Positions 1-27,394 of a stretch of 35,612 nucleotides of DNA are shown piece by piece. Numbering within the stretch: the first letter of the stretch is position 1; each line of letters begins with the position of its first letter. The translations under genes were made by a program, and so were the position numbers. This DNA is from an uncultured Gammaproteobacteria bacterium. Its GTDB lineage: Bacteria > Pseudomonadota > Gammaproteobacteria > Pseudomonadales > Pseudohongiellaceae. The notes under the pieces were generated by a model. It was not told the origin of the DNA and ran no database searches. It was given only the letters and a program-made list of their open reading frames with translations. The stretch spans positions 1 to 35,612 of the forward strand of contig CAJXIY010000022.1 in assembly GCA_913054495.1 (NCBI GenBank), written 5' to 3'.

Positions 1-998
1 CGGTGGGCAACACCGTGGCACCGGAGAAGATCTATCAGCAGTATGGCGCCGATATCCTCCGGCTGTGGGTGGCGGCGACCGACTACCGTGGCGAAATGAC
101 CGTCTCCGACGAAATCTTCAAGCGTGTCGCAGATGCTTACCGGCGGATTCGAAACACCGCCAGGTTCATGTTGGCAAACCTGAATGAGTTTGAGCCGGCA
201 GACGATTTGGTCGCTCCCGATCAGATGCTGGCGCTGGACTACTGGATCGTACGCCAGTGCCAATTGCTGCAAAAGGAAGTAATCGATCATTATCATAGCT
301 ACAATTTTTTGAATATTTACCAGGCTATCCACAATTTTTGCGTGATCGAACTGGGCGGCTTCTATCTCGATGTCATCAAGGACCGACAATACACGACCCA
401 GACTGCCGGCATTCCCCGACGATCTACACAGAGTGCCATGTATCACATATTGGAAATGCTGAGTCGACTAATTGCACCGATCCTCTGCTACACGGCGGAC
501 GAAATCTGGGAAAATATTCCCGGCACCAGGGTGGAGTCGGTTTTTCTCAGCGATTTCGATGCCGCCGAAGAGGATTACGGAGAGTCGGCGGATTTTTCCG
601 ATGATTTCTGGCGTCAGTTAATGGCCATTAAAACAGCCGTGAACAAGGAATTGGAAACCAGACGTGCAGAAAAGACGGTGGGTTCGGGCCTGAGCGCAGA
701 AATAGATTTGTACTGCAGCGATGAATTGGGCCAACAATTGCATCGACTGGGTGACGAGTTGCGATTTGCAATGATCGTGAGTCGAGCCACGGTTAGTCCG
801 CTGGCAGAAGCCGGTGCCGATGCGGTAGACACGCAAGTGGACGGACTAAAACTTCGCGTGTCGGCATCGCTACGGCCGAAGTGTGAGCGCTGTTGGCACC
901 ATCGTGAAGACGTTGGCAGCGATGCTTCTCACCCGCAGCTGTGTCAACGCTGTGTCGACAATATCGAGGGTGCGGGTGAAAAACGCAGTTTCGCGTAA
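1..998 (+). CDS. ileS: Isoleucyl-tRNA synthetase, C-terminal part (5' truncated by window edge)
   Basis: Class I aminoacyl-tRNA synthetase that charges tRNA-Ile in the cytoplasm. Only the last 332 codons or so are present. The reading frame begins with V-G-N-T-V-A-P, the residues that directly follow the KMSKS loop in IleS, so the catalytic Rossmann fold, the editing domain and KMSKS itself lie just off the left edge. Visible are the anticodon-binding helical bundle (ADILRLWVAATDYRGEM onward) and the C-terminal zinc ribbon, with cysteine pairs CERC and CQRC near the end, as in the bacterial eubacterial-type enzyme. The stop codon TAA overlaps the left arm of a palindromic repeat (997-1080). 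In most gammaproteobacteria lspA follows immediately; here it does not. Identification is secure. Confidence 0.97.
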   Translation, partial: VGNTVAPEKIYQQYGADILRLWVAATDYRGEMTVSDEIFKRVADAYRRIRNTARFMLANLNEFEPADDLVAPDQMLALDYWIVRQCQLLQKEVIDHYHSYNFLNIYQAIHNFCVIELGGFYLDVIKDRQYTTQTAGIPRRSTQSAMYHILEMLSRLIAPILCYTADEIWENIPGTRVESVFLSDFDAAEEDYGESADFSDDFWRQLMAIKTAVNKELETRRAEKTVGSGLSAEIDLYCSDELGQQLHRLGDELRFAMIVSRATVSPLAEAGADAVDTQVDGLKLRVSASLRPKCERCWHHREDVGSDASHPQLCQRCVDNIEGAGEKRSFA

Positions 999-1080
999 AA
1001 AAAGGGGCGGAGTCAATTTTCACTCCAGCCTTTATGAATTTGGTATCTTTCAATGAAAATCGCTTCCGACCCCTTTTTTT
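997..1080. repeat. REP/MITE-like palindromic element replacing lspA position
   Basis: An 84-bp imperfect palindrome. The left arm (997-1022) is seven A, GGGG, CGGAGTCA, ATTTTCA. The right arm (1054-1080) read on the minus strand is seven A, GGGG, TCGGAAGCG, ATTTTCA. A 31-base loop separates them. The element begins inside the ileS stop codon and ends at the base before the fkpB start codon, so it fills the whole intergenic space. The GGGGTCGGA-type arm ending resembles REP sequences associated with REP-associated (RAYT) transposases; that link is from memory, not from a search. The long stem followed by a T-run could also act as a transcription terminator, which would separate ileS from fkpB-ispH. 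Confidence 0.8.
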
Positions 1081-1572
1081 GTGGATAGCAACGATGACAT
1101 TCAGATCGAACCGGGATCACTCGTCAGTCTGCACTTTTCCCTGGCGCTCACCGATGGTCAGGTAATCGATTCCAATTTCGCAGCCCCGGCAGCGACATTT
1201 CGCCTGGGCGACGGTAGTATGCTGCCGGGTTTCGAAGCGGCTCTTATTGGCTTGAAACCAGGTCAGGAGCTGGAAACCTTACTAGAGCCCGAACAGGCGT
1301 TCGGGGCGGTAAATCCCAAGAATCAACACCGTTTCCCCATTGCCAAATTCAAAAAATTACTGGAAGATGAGTTAATAGCAACAGAAGTTGGCGCTGTGGT
1401 GTCCTTTAAAGACGCGGCAGGATTTGATCTTCCCGGCGTCATCGCCGAAATCTCTGAACAGACTATCGCTGTGGATTTTAATCATCCACTGGCGGGAAAG
1501 CGGATCGTCTTCAAGGCAAGCATTGTGGCGGTATTAGCAGCGGACGTCGCCAGCGTCGAGGTGAAACTTTGA
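1081..1572 (+). CDS. fkpB: FKBP-type peptidyl-prolyl isomerase, SlpA/FkpB type
   Basis: Cytoplasmic FKBP-fold prolyl isomerase and chaperone of 163 residues. The N-terminal half has the SlpA pattern (VSLHFSLALTDGQVIDSNF, then FRLGDGSMLPGFEAALIGLK), and an insert-in-flap domain follows at about residues 70-130, ending with the family signature VDFNHPLAGK. It normally lies in ileS-lspA-fkpB-ispH, and ispH follows here after 52 bases. The only usable start is GTG at 1081: an in-frame TGA lies at 1054-1056 and no other start codon occurs in the first twenty codons. No Shine-Dalgarno sequence precedes it, because the upstream bases are the T-run of the repeat. Translation may therefore be weak, or the original start may have been lost with lspA. 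Confidence 0.93.
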   Translation: MDSNDDIQIEPGSLVSLHFSLALTDGQVIDSNFAAPAATFRLGDGSMLPGFEAALIGLKPGQELETLLEPEQAFGAVNPKNQHRFPIAKFKKLLEDELIATEVGAVVSFKDAAGFDLPGVIAEISEQTIAVDFNHPLAGKRIVFKASIVAVLAADVASVEVKL

Positions 1573-1624: not shown

Positions 1625-2608
1625 ATGAATATCACGCCACCATCACAATCTACGGCCTTTATTCATCTTGCCAATCCCCGGGGATTTTGTGCTGGAGTGG
1701 ATCGCGCGATCGATATCGTCAGTCGGGCGCTGGATATTTTTGGTGCGCCGGTCTACGTGAGGCACGAAGTCGTACATAATAAATTCGTGGTGGACAGCCT
1801 GCGTAATCGCGGTGCCATATTCGTGGAGGAGCTGGACGAGATTCCGGAATTGGATTCCCGTAAGCGGCCCTCGATCGTTATCTTCAGCGCCCATGGTGTT
1901 TCCCAGAAAATCAGGGAAGAGGCCAAGGCTAAGGGATTCAAGGTGTTCGATGCCACCTGCCCCCTGGTTACCAAGGTCCATCTTGAGGTGACGCACTTTA
2001 GCCAGTCTGGCAGGGAATGTGTTTTGATCGGCCATGCGCATCATCCCGAGGTAGAAGGCACCATGGGTCAGTATGACGATAGCGCTGGCGGCAGTATTTA
2101 TCTAGTGGAGTCGGTGGCTGATGTCCAGGTATTGCGGGTACAGAACCCAGAGCGGCTTTCCTATGTCACTCAGACCACACTGTCGATGGATGACACCTCC
2201 AAGGTAATCGATGCGCTTCAGGAGAAATTTCCCTCAATCCAAGGACCGCGCAAAAAAGATATTTGCTATGCGACACAGAATCGGCAGGACGCGGTCAAGC
2301 AACTGGCACTGGAATGCGAGTTATTGCTGGTGGTAGGGTCGGTGAATAGTTCGAATTCCAATCGCCTGAAGGAATTGGCAGAGCGTCTGGGTTGTGAAGC
2401 CTATTTGATCGATAGTGCTGAGGATATTGAGTCGGGCTGGTTTCTGGATAAATCCCGGTTTGGCATCACCGCGGGCGCGTCGGCGCCGGAAGTACTGGTG
2501 CAGGAGGTGGTGGCGAGACTGAAGGAGATTTGTCAGCAAGAGCCGGTGGAGCTAAAGGGTGCGAAAGAAAATATCGTCTTCAGTACGCCGAGGGAGCTCC
2601 GTGTCTGA
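1625..2608 (+). CDS. ispH: 4-hydroxy-3-methylbut-2-enyl diphosphate reductase (IspH/LytB)
   Basis: Last enzyme of the MEP isoprenoid pathway; it reduces HMBPP to IPP and DMAPP using a [4Fe-4S] cluster. The 327-residue protein is of normal length. The three cluster cysteines are visible in [15 protein letters not shown] (Cys22), [12 protein letters not shown] and [12 protein letters not shown]. Substrate-binding motifs are also present: [46 protein letters not shown] and [16 protein letters not shown], with the usual C-terminal FSTPRELR. It lies 52 bases after fkpB and is probably co-transcribed with it. It ends convergently with valS 63 bases away; a short hairpin there (TGGCG/CGCCA near 2610-2625) has no T-run. 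Confidence 0.97.
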
Positions 2609-2671: not shown

Positions 2672-5440
2672 TCACAACTGATCCAGCTGCCTAAGTTTTT
2701 CCTGTAGTGCAGCCAGTGCCGCAGACATTTCAGTTTGTTTGCTACGCTCCTTATCGACCACGGCAGCGGGTGCGTTGTCGACGAATTTCTGCTTGCCAAG
2801 TTTCCCCTCAACGGCCTTCAGACCAGCTTCGAGCTTGGCAATTTCCTTCTGCAGTCGCGCGCGTTCGGCCTCAACATCGATAAGTCCCGCCATTGGAACC
2901 AGGATTTCCAAGCCGCCGTGGAGTTGGGTGGCGGCAACGGGGGCTTGCTGATCCGGCGCCAGCCATTCTATATTTTTGAGTTTGGCAAGTTTTTGCAGAT
3001 AAGGTTTGTAGCTCTGTAATCTTGATTTGTCCCCATCCTCGGTGCCGCGCAGAAACACGTCGATCGACTTCGCCGGAGAAATATTCATCTCGCCACGGAT
3101 GTTTCGAATCGCTGTGATTATGCCTTTAAGCCATTCGATACCGTCTTCGGCCTCGGTGTCTATCTGGGCTTTATCAAAAACAGGATAGGCCCCCAGCATC
3201 ACACTATCGCCAGTAATTTGCAGCAGGGGCGCCACCCGCTGCCAGATTTCTTCGGTGATGAAAGGCATGAATGGGTGCAGCAGGCGCAAGCTCTTCTCCA
3301 GTGTGGACAGCAACGCCCAGCGCGTCGCTTCGGCAAACGCTGGATCTGCATCTTCATCCCAGAGAATGGGTTTGGACAATTCGAGGTACCAGTCGCAGTA
3401 CTCGTTCCAGATAAATTGATGCAGTGCCTGGGAGGCCAGGTCGAAACGATAATTGGCCATTGCCTGTTCTACTTCCTGCGCGGTTTTCTCGAAGCGACTG
3501 AGGATCCAACGATCGGCTATGGACAAATGCATTACGGCTGCGTCCGCGTTGGCCACGGATTTATCCTCGGTGTTCATGAGCACATAACGAGCCCCGTTCC
3601 ATATCTTGTTGCAGAAGTTGCGAAAACCTTCGGTCCTGCCCAGGTCAAACTTGATATCCCTGCCAGTCGAGGCCAGGGAGTAGAAGGTGAATCGAAGCGC
3701 ATCGGTACCATAGCCGGTGATGCCGTCGGGAAATGATTCCCGGGTGTGCTTCTCAATCCTTTGTCGTTGCTGCGGCTGCATCAGATCGGCGGTGCGCTTC
3801 TCAATTAATTGCTCCAGGTCGATACCATCGATCAAGTCGATCGGATCGAGTACATTGCCCTTGGATTTGGACATTTTCTGTCCATGCTCATCCCGCACCA
3901 GGCCGGTGATGTAAACTTTCTTGAAGGGGATCTCACCGGTGAATTTAAGCGTCATCATGATCATGCGGGCGACCCAGAAGAAAATAATGTCGAAGCCGGT
4001 AACCAATACGTTGGTTGGGTGAAAGCGATCGAAAAATTCCCGCTCATCGGGCCAGCCCAAGGTGGAGAAGGTCCACAGCGCCGAGGAAAACCAGGTATCC
4101 AGAACATCTTCATCCTGGTGCAACTGAATCTCGGTGCCGAGGCCATGGCTGGCACGCACGTCTGCTTCGCTGTGACCAACATACACCTTGCCATCTTCAT
4201 CATACCAGGCCGGAATCCTATGTCCCCACCATAGCTGGCGGGAGATGCACCAGTCCTGGATATTTCGCATCCAGGCGAAGTAGGTGTTCTCCCAGTTTTT
4301 CGGAACGAATTCGATAGCGCCGTCTTCTACCGCCCTGATCGCGGGGTCGGCTAGCGTCTGCACCGCCACATACCACTGGTTGGTGAGATAGGGCTCGACG
4401 ATAACACCGCTGCGGTCACCCCGTGGCACCTTCAGTTTGTGCGGCTCAATTTTTTCGAGCAGACCGATGGCCTCGAGATCGGCGATCACTTTTTCCCGGG
4501 CGTCGAATCTATCCATGCCCTGGTAAAGCGCCGGCGCATTCTCGTTGATAGCGGCATCTGCAGTGAAGATGTTGATCACTTCCAGCTTGTTGCGCTTGCC
4601 CAGTTCATAGTCATTAAAGTCATGGGCCGGAGTGATTTTGACGCAGCCGGTACCAAATTCTGGGTCCACATAGTCGTCAGCGATGATGGGTATTTTCCGA
4701 TCGCAGAGGGGTAAGTCCACGAACTTGCCCACAAGGTGGCTAAAGCGCTGGTCTTCCGGGTGCACCGCGACCGCGGTATCGCCCAGCATGGTTTCCGGCC
4801 GGGTCGTGGCGACGGTGACATGTTCATCGCTGCCTGAGACCGGATAGCGGAAGTACCACAGGAAACCGTTTTCTTCCTCAGAGATGACTTCGAGATCGGA
4901 TATAGCTGTGTGTAATTGCGGATCCCAATTGACGAGGCGATTGCCGCGATAAATTAAACCCTCTGTATACAGATCGATGAAGACTTTCTCTACCACCGAG
5001 GAGAGCTGCGGGTCCATGGTAAAGCGCTCCCTGGTCCAGTCCAGAGATGATCCCATGCGTCGCAGCTGCTGGGTGATGATGCCACCCGACTCCTGTTTCC
5101 ATTCCCAGACCTTGGCCACGAAAGCGTCACGCCCGAGCTGCTGGCGACTGCTGCCGGCGGCAGCGAGGCGCCGCTCTACTACCATCTGGGTAGCGATACC
5201 GGCGTGATCTGTGCCTACCTGCCACAGCGTCTGGCGGCCCAGCATTCGATGGTAGCGGGTAAGCGCGTCCATGATCGCGTGTTGAAAACCATGGCCCATG
5301 TGCAGGCGCCCGGTAACATTCGGCGGTGGGATGACGATGCAATAGGGCTCACCGTCGCCCTGGGGCGCAAAATAGCCCCGTTCTTCCCAGGTGTGGTACC
5401 AGTGATCTTCGAGCTGCTGTGGTTGGTAAGTCTTATCCAT
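2672..5440 (-). CDS. valS: Valyl-tRNA synthetase
   Basis: Class Ia synthetase charging tRNA-Val, 922 residues. The HIGH motif is HMGH at 47-50 in [21 protein letters not shown] is at 522-526. The CP1 editing domain lies at about 195-340 ([32 protein letters not shown]). The C-terminal coiled-coil tRNA arm runs over the last 65 residues or so ([20 protein letters not shown]). The start chosen is ATG at 5440 (MDKTYQP), which matches the family N-terminus; a TTG 15 bases further upstream would add five residues without a better ribosome site. It is last in pepA-holC-valS, the conserved gammaproteobacterial order. The gap to holC carries six 13-bp tandem repeats and a TATAAT box, so valS probably also has its own promoter. 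Confidence 0.97.
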
Positions 5441-11235: not shown

Positions 11236-11332
11236 GCTGGGGTGGTTGCTGCTCTGACACGCCGTGAATACATCCCTGTAGGCTCGGCGCCAGCTCCCTG
11301 CTGGCGACGGTCAGATCAACAACCACCCCAGC
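11236..11332. repeat. 97-bp structured palindromic intergenic repeat
   Basis: Outer arms GCTGGGGTGGTTG-C-TG (11236-11251) and its complement at 11317-11332 match over 16 bases with one mismatch. Inside lie a second pair, TCTGAC (11253-11258) with GTCAGA (11310-11315), and a tight hairpin CGCCAGC-TCCCT-GCTGGCG (11288-11306). Together they would fold as a long stem carrying a side hairpin. It lies between pntB and the RDD gene, both minus strand, and could terminate pnt transcription, though no T-run follows. It is unrelated in sequence to the repeats at 997 and 8308. Confidence 0.7.
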
Positions 11333-24155: not shown

Positions 24156-24303
24156 ATACGCTAAAGTCATTGATCTTGGCGGTCAGGCTTGATACCTATA
24201 GAGTGTTGTACTCGGCAGTATCGACCACACGATTGTAAAATGGGCCCTGCAGTCCAGCCCTTGCTTGCAATCGGGTTCCACAATAAAAAATGGAAGCGTC
24301 CTG

Positions 24304-25296
24304 ATGTTCCGTCCCGTACTTGCTTCTTGCGCCATTATCCTGGCTACGGCAGTCGCCGCTCAGGGAGCGGAATTCTCGCCTCGACTCACCGAGTATGGTC
24401 ATCCGGATTTTCAAGGCATCTGGACTAATGAAACCCAGACTCCCTTTCTGAGGCCCGAGGAGTTAGAGACCAAACAGTCCTATTCTTTAGCAGAAGCGAA
24501 TGAGTTTGAGCGAGGAAAAACCCAGATGCTCGAGGAGCGGGCGGCGCCACTGGGTCCGGCCCGTACTGCCCCTGAATTAACCGGTTCTATACAGAACCAG
24601 TCTGAGGATATTTTCAAACGACCGTTTTTCAATATCCTCGTTATCGATGGCGAGTATCGCACCTCGATACTGGTTGATCCGCCCAATGGGCGTCTGCCGT
24701 TTAAGGAAAATTGCCGCGCGATGGATATCTATGGCCAGTGGCGTGCCGCTGGCCATGGTAGCTTCGATGGACCGGAAATCAGAGAACCTGGCGAGCGTTG
24801 TCTCAGCGATTGGGGGCAATTGCCGCCGATGCGGGTGGTGCCGGTAAGTTCAAATTTTAAGTTCGTTCAGAACCAGGATTACGTGGTTTTATATATTGAA
24901 GCCGGCGCCGAAGTGAGAATTATCAAGTTGAGCGATACCCATTCCACGGCATTGCATAAAAAATGGAGAGGCGATTCCATAGGCTACTGGGATGACAACA
25001 CACTGGTCGTCCACACCAACAACTTTCACCGGCAGCAGTCGGTGATCCGGGTTCCCTCATCCGAGTTGTTCGAAGTAGACGAGCGCTTCACTCTGATTTC
25101 GGACGATGAAATCTTCTACCGCTACACCGTGACGGACCCTAATATCTACACGCAGTCATTCACTGGTGAACTCATGCTAAGTCGAATGCCAAGCGGAGAT
25201 AAGTTGTACGACTACGCTTGCCATGAAGGCAACTATTCCCTGCCAGGAATTCTTGCAGGCGCGAGGAGACAGGAGCGGGACGGCCTAATTCGGTAG
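24304..25296 (+). CDS. Secreted protein of unknown function
   Basis: A 330-residue protein with a signal peptide (MFRPVLASCAIILATAVAAQ, then G-A-E). The start at ATG 24304 is preferred over 24265 because the signal peptide begins there. The mature part has YGHPDFQGIWTNETQTPFLR near its start and GDSIGYWDDNTLVVHTNNFH further on. This D-x-x-G-I-W...D-S-I-G-x-W-x-x-x-T-L-V-V pattern belongs to a family widespread in sphingomonads, caulobacters and marine gammaproteobacteria with no assigned function that I know. Conserved cysteines (ENCRAMD, GERCLSDWG, YACHEGN) may form disulfides. It is convergent with the TIR gene, ten bases apart. Confidence 0.72.
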   Translation: MFRPVLASCAIILATAVAAQGAEFSPRLTEYGHPDFQGIWTNETQTPFLRPEELETKQSYSLAEANEFERGKTQMLEERAAPLGPARTAPELTGSIQNQSEDIFKRPFFNILVIDGEYRTSILVDPPNGRLPFKENCRAMDIYGQWRAAGHGSFDGPEIREPGERCLSDWGQLPPMRVVPVSSNFKFVQNQDYVVLYIEAGAEVRIIKLSDTHSTALHKKWRGDSIGYWDDNTLVVHTNNFHRQQSVIRVPSSELFEVDERFTLISDDEIFYRYTVTDPNIYTQSFTGELMLSRMPSGDKLYDYACHEGNYSLPGILAGARRQERDGLIR

Positions 25297-25306
25297 GAGT
25301 TTAGTC

Positions 25307-27394
25307 TCAGTTGGGAAAGGTGGGTTTGAAGTCGATAACCGCTAACTGTGCATCGGACACACCCTGAGATTCTAAGAACTGTTGCCATCGTGGGTCGCTG
25401 TGAAGCCCTTGGAGTAGCGAGTGCGTGTACCCTCCAAAATTTGGATTATGTTCAATTTTCTGGTGTTGCTCTAGCCATCGGAAGGCTTCATCCTTATCTC
25501 CCGCGTGAGCATGAATAGTGGCCATTCCAAGTGGCCAGACTTGCGAGTAGTTAGCTTCGAATTCCACTAATCCAGCATTATACTCATCAAACTCGCCCAT
25601 CGCGTACAAGCTCAATAAGACCCCTCTTGCCCCTAATTGCGGGCGAAGCGCTTGCTTGTAAAGTGACAAGGCTTCCCCAGCATCGCCTTTAAGTAAGCGC
25701 ACCTGTGCCAGAGCAGAGTAGCCGGCGACGCGACCCTGACGCAATAGCTGGCGAAAGATGGTTTCCGCCTCGTCAAGTAAACCGGCCCCCACATAAGCAT
25801 CGCCTAGATTTTTCAGACAGGTCATACAGATGGGATCATGCTCTAGCAGATACTCACCCAGTCGTATCGCATCCTCTGGACGGCGCAGATTAATTACTAC
25901 CCCTACCGCGCCACGCAACACATCCACATCTGTTGGAAAATGCACCAGTGATTGCTCCACATACCGCGCAGCGACTGCCATGTCGTTGTTGTATTTCATC
26001 TCTATCCAGCCTAGAAGCGAAGCCGCATAGTTTGGCCCTATTTCGGCTACCTGCATTGAGACCTCACGCGCAAGCTGCCATTGGTTGGAATTCATATAGG
26101 CGCGTGTCAGCTCTTTTAAGGCCGGAAAATAGCTTGGGTCTCGCTCAACCGCCTGTTGAAGAAGCGGCAGCGCGGTTTGCAATGCTTGTGGTGTGAACTG
26201 GAAGATCAGGTGTCGCGCTTGAAGATACATACGATGTGTTTCTGGATCTGTGGTGAAAACTAAAACGGGATTGTCGAGCAGACGCACTCTTAACTGTGCA
26301 ACCACAGCCGCCGCTATCTGGTCTTGCACAGCAAACACATCATCCAATGTGACTGTGTACGTATCCGACCACAGGTGCGTATCGGTGAGTGCGTCTATAA
26401 GCTGCGCGGTAATTCGAACTTCATCACCCCCTTTGCGCACTGAACCTTCGAGGATGTGAGTAACTCCCAGTTCTGCAACATAGGTTGCGACACCCGAATT
26501 TTTACCCTTGTATGAAAATGCGGAGGTGCGCGAGATAACTTTCAAATTGGTGGTTTTAGTGAGCACGTTCAGTATTTCTTCTGAAATACTGTCGGAAAAA
26601 TATTCCTGCTGCAGGTCTCCACTCATATTCACAAAGGGCAACACAACAATCGATTTTTCTTCAGATTGCGGTTCCAGGACGGGCGCGTTGTAGGGCATGT
26701 ATACCGCAACAAGCGCGATGACGAACACCACCGCCGCAGCGGCAATCGCCAATGATCGGTTTCTAGTGTTGCGCTCTGCACTAAAATCGTTTGCGTCGGC
26801 CGCGATCTCTTTCACCGGCTCTTCTGCCAGGCTTGGTGTCTCTAGTGAAACTGTTTGCGGCCTTGGATCGAGTTCCGATTTGGCAGTGGTCTCAAGCTGG
26901 TCCTCAATAAACGTCTCAGGCACAGCTTCAGCTATGATCTCTGGCACGGCCTCGACAACGTCTCTAGTTGCCGTCGATGTGGCCAGTACTCCACACAGAA
27001 TTTCATGAAAGGTTTCAGACGTATGTTCGCTTCGATCGATTGTCTGGACGCGGCTCAAGCCGAGCCGCAAATCTACCGTTAGGGGTGTTGCGTCAAGCCG
27101 TACAGGAACGATGTGCACGTTCTTGTCCAGCGCATAGTTGATCTCGCGATTACAGTGCTCCGAAGCAAGGGAGGGTTTTGAGATGTACAGCAGCACATGC
27201 TCTGCTCCTTCCAGGGATTCTCCGACTTCGGCGCGCCAATTTGTTCCTGGAGAAATACCTTCGTCGTACCACACGTTGATACCGCTCTCATGCAACAACG
27301 CAATATCTGTATACACAATTTCTGCATCCTCATGCGCATAACACACAAAGATATAGGCATCGCTACCCCGGTACGCTGGAAAGGGTTTAGTCAA
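25307..27394 (-). CDS. TIR-TM-TolB/FlgO-like-TPR protein
   Basis: A 695-residue multidomain protein. Residues 9-135 are a bacterial TIR domain (SDAYIFVCYAHEDAEIV, VWYDEGISPGTNWRAEV, VLLYISKPSLASEHCNREIN); Glu84 in N-R-E-I-N-Y-A-L is at the position of the NADase glutamate. Residues 214-233 are one membrane span. Residues about 247-372 resemble the TolB-like/FlgO-like domain found in class III adenylate cyclase and CadC-type proteins (IVVLPFVNMSGDLQQEYFSD, GVTHILEGSVRKGGDEVRIT, LWSDTYTVTLDDVFAVQDQI). The rest is TPR-like helical repeats. The TIR domain would be cytoplasmic and the rest periplasmic. The start is TTG 27394 after a strong AAGGAGG. No cyclase or effector neighbour is present. NAD cleavage or signalling is inference. 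Confidence 0.85.
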   Translation of the reverse strand: MTKPFPAYRGSDAYIFVCYAHEDAEIVYTDIALLHESGINVWYDEGISPGTNWRAEVGESLEGAEHVLLYISKPSLASEHCNREINYALDKNVHIVPVRLDATPLTVDLRLGLSRVQTIDRSEHTSETFHEILCGVLATSTATRDVVEAVPEIIAEAVPETFIEDQLETTAKSELDPRPQTVSLETPSLAEEPVKEIAADANDFSAERNTRNRSLAIAAAAVVFVIALVAVYMPYNAPVLEPQSEEKSIVVLPFVNMSGDLQQEYFSDSISEEILNVLTKTTNLKVISRTSAFSYKGKNSGVATYVAELGVTHILEGSVRKGGDEVRITAQLIDALTDTHLWSDTYTVTLDDVFAVQDQIAAAVVAQLRVRLLDNPVLVFTTDPETHRMYLQARHLIFQFTPQALQTALPLLQQAVERDPSYFPALKELTRAYMNSNQWQLAREVSMQVAEIGPNYAASLLGWIEMKYNNDMAVAARYVEQSLVHFPTDVDVLRGAVGVVINLRRPEDAIRLGEYLLEHDPICMTCLKNLGDAYVGAGLLDEAETIFRQLLRQGRVAGYSALAQVRLLKGDAGEALSLYKQALRPQLGARGVLLSLYAMGEFDEYNAGLVEFEANYSQVWPLGMATIHAHAGDKDEAFRWLEQHQKIEHNPNFGGYTHSLLQGLHSDPRWQQFLESQGVSDAQLAVIDFKPTFPN

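Follow-up and report, generated by a model that had tools for sequence, protein, structure and literature searches.

The ileS-fkpB locus of an uncultured gammaproteobacterial genus: an old loss of lspA and a late palindrome, probably unrelated

RESULTS

The loss of lspA from between ileS and fkpB in the genome described here (G000) is old, and the palindrome that now occupies the gap is late. We consider it likely that the locus superposes two unrelated events, namely, the replacement of lspA in an ancestor of the genus and a much later insertion of the palindrome. The locus lies at the start of a 35,612-bp stretch of DNA, analyzed at its full length and referred to here as the window, which is contig C22, one of 201 contigs in a draft assembly that is 99.3% complete.

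Table 1 Features of the ileS-fkpB locus (positions in the window)
Feature	Position	Strand	Description
ileS, 3' part	3..998	+	Pfam Anticodon_1 and zf-FPG_IleRS; frame open at contig start; TAA at 996-998
84-nt imperfect palindrome, probable degenerate RAYT/TIRYT-kind terminal-repeat dimer	997..1080		Folds, C132 partial sibling, transposase-flanking half-site core, absence from congeneric gaps
Left half-site	997..1022	+	AAAAAAAGGGG(-)CGGA..ATTTTCA, core one base short; from sequence
Right half-site	1053..1080	-	Minus-strand AAAAAAAGGGGTCGGA..ATTTTCAT, core GGGGTCGGA intact; from sequence
fkpB	1081..1572	+	FKBP_C, 47.1 bits; GTG at 1081-1083 directly 3' of the palindrome
ispH	1625..2608	+	LYTB, 317.5 bits

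According to the original prediction, lspA is missing from the ileS-fkpB gap, a palindrome fills its place exactly, and fkpB is left without a visible ribosome site. All three observations stand. The gap consists of the palindrome and nothing else, running from the ileS stop codon to the base before the fkpB GTG and containing no lspA frame, and the one PF01252 gene that the genome has lies on a different contig. Inspection of the sequence reveals no purine-rich ribosome site before fkpB, and such a site is, as judged by eye, weak or absent in several congeners too. The C terminus of IleS is as usual in comparison with 29 congeners. Assembly error is an unlikely cause of the missing gene, since the lspA-less order recurs across many separately assembled genomes. 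Elsewhere in the window, positions 25307-27394 on the minus strand encode a TIR_2 domain protein with tetratricopeptide repeats.

We fetched fkpB loci from 29 of the 36 congeneric relatives, leaving out G034 (good fkpB match), G001, G032, and G036 (weak matches only), and G018, G030, and G033 (no match). At all 29 loci read, fkpB comes after ileS with no lspA between them, and 12 to 216 bases separate the ileS stop from the first codon of the fkpB match. The repeat core is present in none of these 29 gaps, and among the loci compared it is confined to G000. Relatives with the same gap and no repeat, which the original prediction had named beforehand as evidence against a deletion junction, are therefore what every congeneric locus read provides. 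The three genomes in which an fkpB match is absent altogether are 94 to 98% complete, which raises the possibility that the G018/G030/G033 branch has lost or altered fkpB as well.

Outside the genus the usual order prevails. Among 21 sampled genomes from other families of the order, 20 have ileS-lspA-fkpB, and the remaining one has ileS-lspA-ispH with no fkpB match. We also compared 80 named ispH loci, 7 of them the closest and 73 more distant. No lspA was seen in the seven closest, but L104 begins inside fkpB and is hence uninformative, and L102, L103, and L105 probably come from the same genomes as G017, G031, and G013. The 73 more distant loci comprise 69 with ileS-lspA-fkpB, 2 with lspA-fkpB and no ileS match, 1 that is truncated, and 1 that lacks lspA. 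This last locus (L172; SEBU01000008.1, PMG_192; genome G354), with its gap near 4440-4480, represents a second lineage in which no lspA separates ileS from fkpB. The single PF01252 gene of this lineage is elsewhere (L300, 1393-1950) and is of a different kind, with the helix-1 Asp and Lys kept; this lineage is probably an independent lspA replacement. Searches of the literature on the gene cluster returned no title dealing with loss of lspA from ileS-fkpB.

The expectation that lspA "must have moved or been replaced" was borne out. A genome-wide profile search located the single PF01252 gene of G000 at C70:923-1339 on the minus strand, adjoining a DUF1499 gene and a histidine-phosphatase gene. 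The same divergent type of LspA was found in 32 of the 36 congeners at 89 to 102 bits (PF01252), with the histidine-phosphatase gene beside it in 32 of 32 loci, and the four congeners without a match (G019, G026, G028, and G032) are all 66 to 88% complete. LspA proteins of the 21 order genomes described above score 126 to 157 bits. The divergent LspA of G000 reaches 97.1 bits against PF01252 (cutoff, 25 bits) and 90.5 against the lspA equivalog TIGR00077 (cutoff, 73.95) and also matches LspA chains of solved structure. A tree of 85 LspA sequences groups the 33 from the genus into one clade (support, 0.98) on a stem of 1.09; the other 52 are those of 21 order genomes and the 29 best-matching class genomes, L300, and an extra copy from G007. 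This extra copy, a second, canonical lspA (L231; G007:C72, 2485-2997), lies beside genes that by eye look cation-efflux-like, MerR-like, and transposase-like. We considered contamination and rejected it in light of these neighbors, on a stretch without ileS, fkpB, or ispH matches; the gene looks like an accessory copy and was excluded from the genus set.

Identities between divergent LspA proteins track those between the corresponding IleS proteins (r = 0.83; 0 of 2,000 permutations as good) across 26 genomes, 4 of the 30 fkpB-locus genomes having been dropped (3 without a divergent LspA match and 1 with a cut ileS). Taken with the locus comparison, this tracking places the replacement before the radiation of the genus, such that the palindrome cannot be its scar.

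Where the divergent LspA came from is a separate question. It could be a native gene that was relocated and then changed fast, not one acquired from outside, and the donor searches are consistent with this idea. They yielded no donor among 273 other genomes of the class (best outside match, 68.9 bits) or, at a limit of 1e-12, among 149 other genomes of a phylum sample (best, 61.9), no relative among viral contigs, and no donor among plasmids, phages, and PHROGs. Identity was at most 36% for all donor-search matches listed, and further plasmid and phage matches were under 60%. However, the long stem would fit acquisition from an unsampled lineage equally well, and the L172 lineage (G354) shows that a different LspA can take over elsewhere. 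We regard a native origin as quite possible but slightly short of probable.

The letters of the palindrome run from A997 to T1080 as AAAAAAAGGGGcGGA..ATTTTCA / TGAAAAT..TCCGaCCCCTTTTTTT. Its A-run merges with the ileS stop codon, and its T-run abuts the fkpB start. Both as DNA (z-score, -3.10) and as RNA (z-score, -3.15; -29.1 kcal/mol), it folds such that only 2 of 200 shuffles are as good. Exact 11-mer inverted pairs spaced by at most 80 bases occur in the window at the palindrome and in one overlapping cluster near 11236-11332; a default repeat scan did not list the palindrome because a one-base gap interrupts it.

DNA similarity identified only one partial sibling of the palindrome in G000, at C132:2624-2656 (85% over 33 bases), which belongs to a full palindrome at C132:2577-2652 whose caps and core are the same. 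A loose half-site search of G000 returned 77 sites, compared with 56 for a control, a modest excess; by hand count, 38 of the 77 have AAATGGGGTCAGAGTA ends, and there are 13 close inverted pairs. Several AAATGGGGTCAGAGTA sites are no more than about 100 bases away from a contig end (e.g., C56, C64, C92, C125, and C153), and these repeats may break the assembly. Exact AAAGGGGTCGGA doublets are present in 4 of 61 genomes of the genus, and a control pattern is present in 0 of 61. In G003, a GGGGTCAGAG-type palindrome sits just 3' of ispH (L073, 3081-3125), which implies that such repeats settle around the ileS-fkpB-ispH operon more than once. We found no closely related sibling species in which the site is empty, the nearest fkpB being 73% identical, and a text search of the literature for the repeat letters returned titles unrelated to bacterial repeats.

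Y1 transposases act on hairpin single strands. Among the PF01797 matches listed, we read 32 transposase loci, 3 from G000 and 29 congeneric, and 13 of these carry genes of a (Y/H)HIVQRG(N/H)NR-like type. The half-site core is near 10 of the 13 (L235 to L239, L241, L242, and L244 to L246). Seven genes have inverted cores on both sides (L235, L237, L238, L241, and L244 to L246); L236 has the core on one side and direct copies beyond the other, L239 has it on one side, and L242 has it on one side, with its contig ending soon after the gene. No core was seen near the short C42 and C43 genes of G000 or near L240, a locus cut at its 3' side whose visible 5' side is without one. None of the other 19 PF01797 loci has the core in place, that of L250 being farther off. 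Cores number 23 in 98.9 kb at transposase loci and 6 in 264.9 kb at lspA/fkpB loci; altered core patterns gave 0 to 1 and 2 to 4, respectively. Against the NCBIfam model for REP-associated tyrosine transposases, L244 scored 71.7 and part of L235 scored 49, below the cutoff of 80. G000 itself yielded no intact cognate transposase gene with half-sites, the C42 and C43 genes being short and without them.

Y1 transposase genes thus carry the same half-site at their ends, and its core is intact in the right arm of the window palindrome. The core there, GGGGTCGG, does not match GGGGWSAS in the form in which that motif is published, and the left arm is short of one base; the same core position is occupied by G in 6 of the 10 core-bearing transposase genes of the genus. 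Because 10 of the 13 transposase genes of this type among the loci read have the core at their flanks, a degenerate terminal-repeat dimer is the best reading of the palindrome, in agreement with the original prediction that it is a repeat of the mobile type. As such, it is of an ordinary mobile-repeat kind.

The palindrome could instead be a bidirectional transcription terminator that originated at this spot. Its A-run, GC arms, and T-run and the strength of its RNA fold would suit that role, and the 216-base ileS-fkpB gap of G021 (L097) contains an unrelated 11-base inverted repeat. However, the loop is long, exceeding on the plus strand the limit of a terminator scan, and core and cap are shared with the C132 palindrome, with the exact doublets of 4 genomes (none for the control pattern), and with transposase gene ends. 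The scan reported one minus-strand site, not above shuffle expectation, and promoter-like and terminator-like sites nearby show no excess over shuffles. We regard a terminator of local origin as improbable and retain the terminal-repeat dimer.

We infer from its sequence that the divergent LspA is a working signal peptidase II. The catalytic pair is kept, Asp118 in 33 of 33 genus sequences and Asp136 in 32 of 33, with one unknown residue in the other. Of the 14 highly conserved LspA residues in the list given in PMC6952399, 12 are kept and the full set is not. The helix-1 Asp is replaced by Ser, Cys, or Ala and the Lys by Gly in 33 of 33 genus sequences; among the 52 other LspA sequences, the Asp is present in 50 and the Lys in 51, the rest being gaps. 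His49, Arg51, and His140 are invariant across the genus. The activity table shown in PMC6952399 has no mutants of the helix-1 Asp or Lys. H. pylori LspA departs at two of the residues listed for it in PMC7240156, so the 14-residue set is no strict definition of the family.

The consistent loss of 2 of the 14 signature residues could mean that the protein is not a working signal peptidase II and that another enzyme does the job. This seems very unlikely, given that it is encoded by the only PF01252 gene in G000, that all 40 sampled genomes of the genus and order that are at least 90% complete have an LspA match, that the Asp pair is intact, and that the protein exceeds the TIGR00077 cutoff. G000 also has Lgt. 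A simple lipobox pattern matched 1 of 27 frames in the window (24265-25296) and is unconvincing by eye, so the earlier claim that this genome makes lipoproteins is supported here by Lgt and LspA and not by the window match. A bolder proposal, which we think possible but on the unlikely side, is that this whole uncultured genus depends, for its essential lipoprotein pathway, on a signal peptidase II rebuilt such that His49, Arg51, and His140 take the role of the missing Asp-Lys pair, possibly with an altered substrate range or globomycin response.

DISCUSSION

The suggestion that lspA was deleted through the palindrome, or that the palindrome took over the gap and is itself the deletion junction, had in its favor that a repeat of mobile type fills the gap exactly, but it can hardly be right when 29 of 29 congeneric loci read lack lspA, none contains the repeat core, and identities of the replacement LspA across the genus follow those of IleS.

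Under the explanation that we prefer, two superposed and unrelated events, the usual lspA would have been lost from between ileS and fkpB before the common ancestor of the genus, and its job would have passed to the divergent LspA beside the histidine-phosphatase gene, to be inherited with the genomes since. This enzyme most likely cleaves prolipoproteins by means of the usual Asp pair, although it lacks the helix-1 Asp and Lys. The small palindrome would have entered the short gap between ileS and fkpB much later, in this lineage, as an inverted half-site dimer like those bounding RAYT/TIRYT-type transposase genes in the genus; a transposase of that type probably mobilized it in trans. In transcripts that read through, a strong hairpin would form ahead of fkpB and may dampen read-through into fkpB-ispH, an effect that a ribosome halted at the ileS stop codon (996-998) would relieve by covering the GGGG arm.

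A textbook gene order can, then, lose an essential member genus-wide, and a repeat can occupy the whole gap where a gene used to be without marking its loss. The LspA variant shared by the genus is mildly novel. It offers naturally occurring LspA proteins that lack two residues lining the site of catalysis and antibiotic binding, and it makes the need for these residues directly testable.

The divergent protein is like signal peptidase II LspA as defined by PF01252 and TIGR00077 in its full-length match, its Asp pair, and 12 of the 14 residues of the PMC6952399 list. It differs from the usual LspA in that its gene lies outside the ileS-fkpB operon, the helix-1 Asp and Lys are replaced, and His49, Arg51, and His140 are invariant in the genus. 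With REP/REPIN elements and their RAYTs, the palindrome has in common a short palindromic doublet linked to Y1 transposases; unlike them, as defined in the relevant part of PMC6006769, it has no GT[AG]G foot, and its ends are A-runs and GGGG. From TIRYT terminal inverted repeats and their dimers, as outlined in PMC3733652 and, for Y1 subclass 2.1, in PMC6006769, it differs in its core (GGGGTCGG and not GGGGWSAS), in being degenerate, and in that G000 has no intact cognate gene with such ends. Nevertheless, inverted half-sites with a GGGG core bordering Y1 transposase genes, together with free dimers in the genome, are common to both, and the palindrome appears to resemble the TIRYT kind in its behavior, short of a claim to strict membership.
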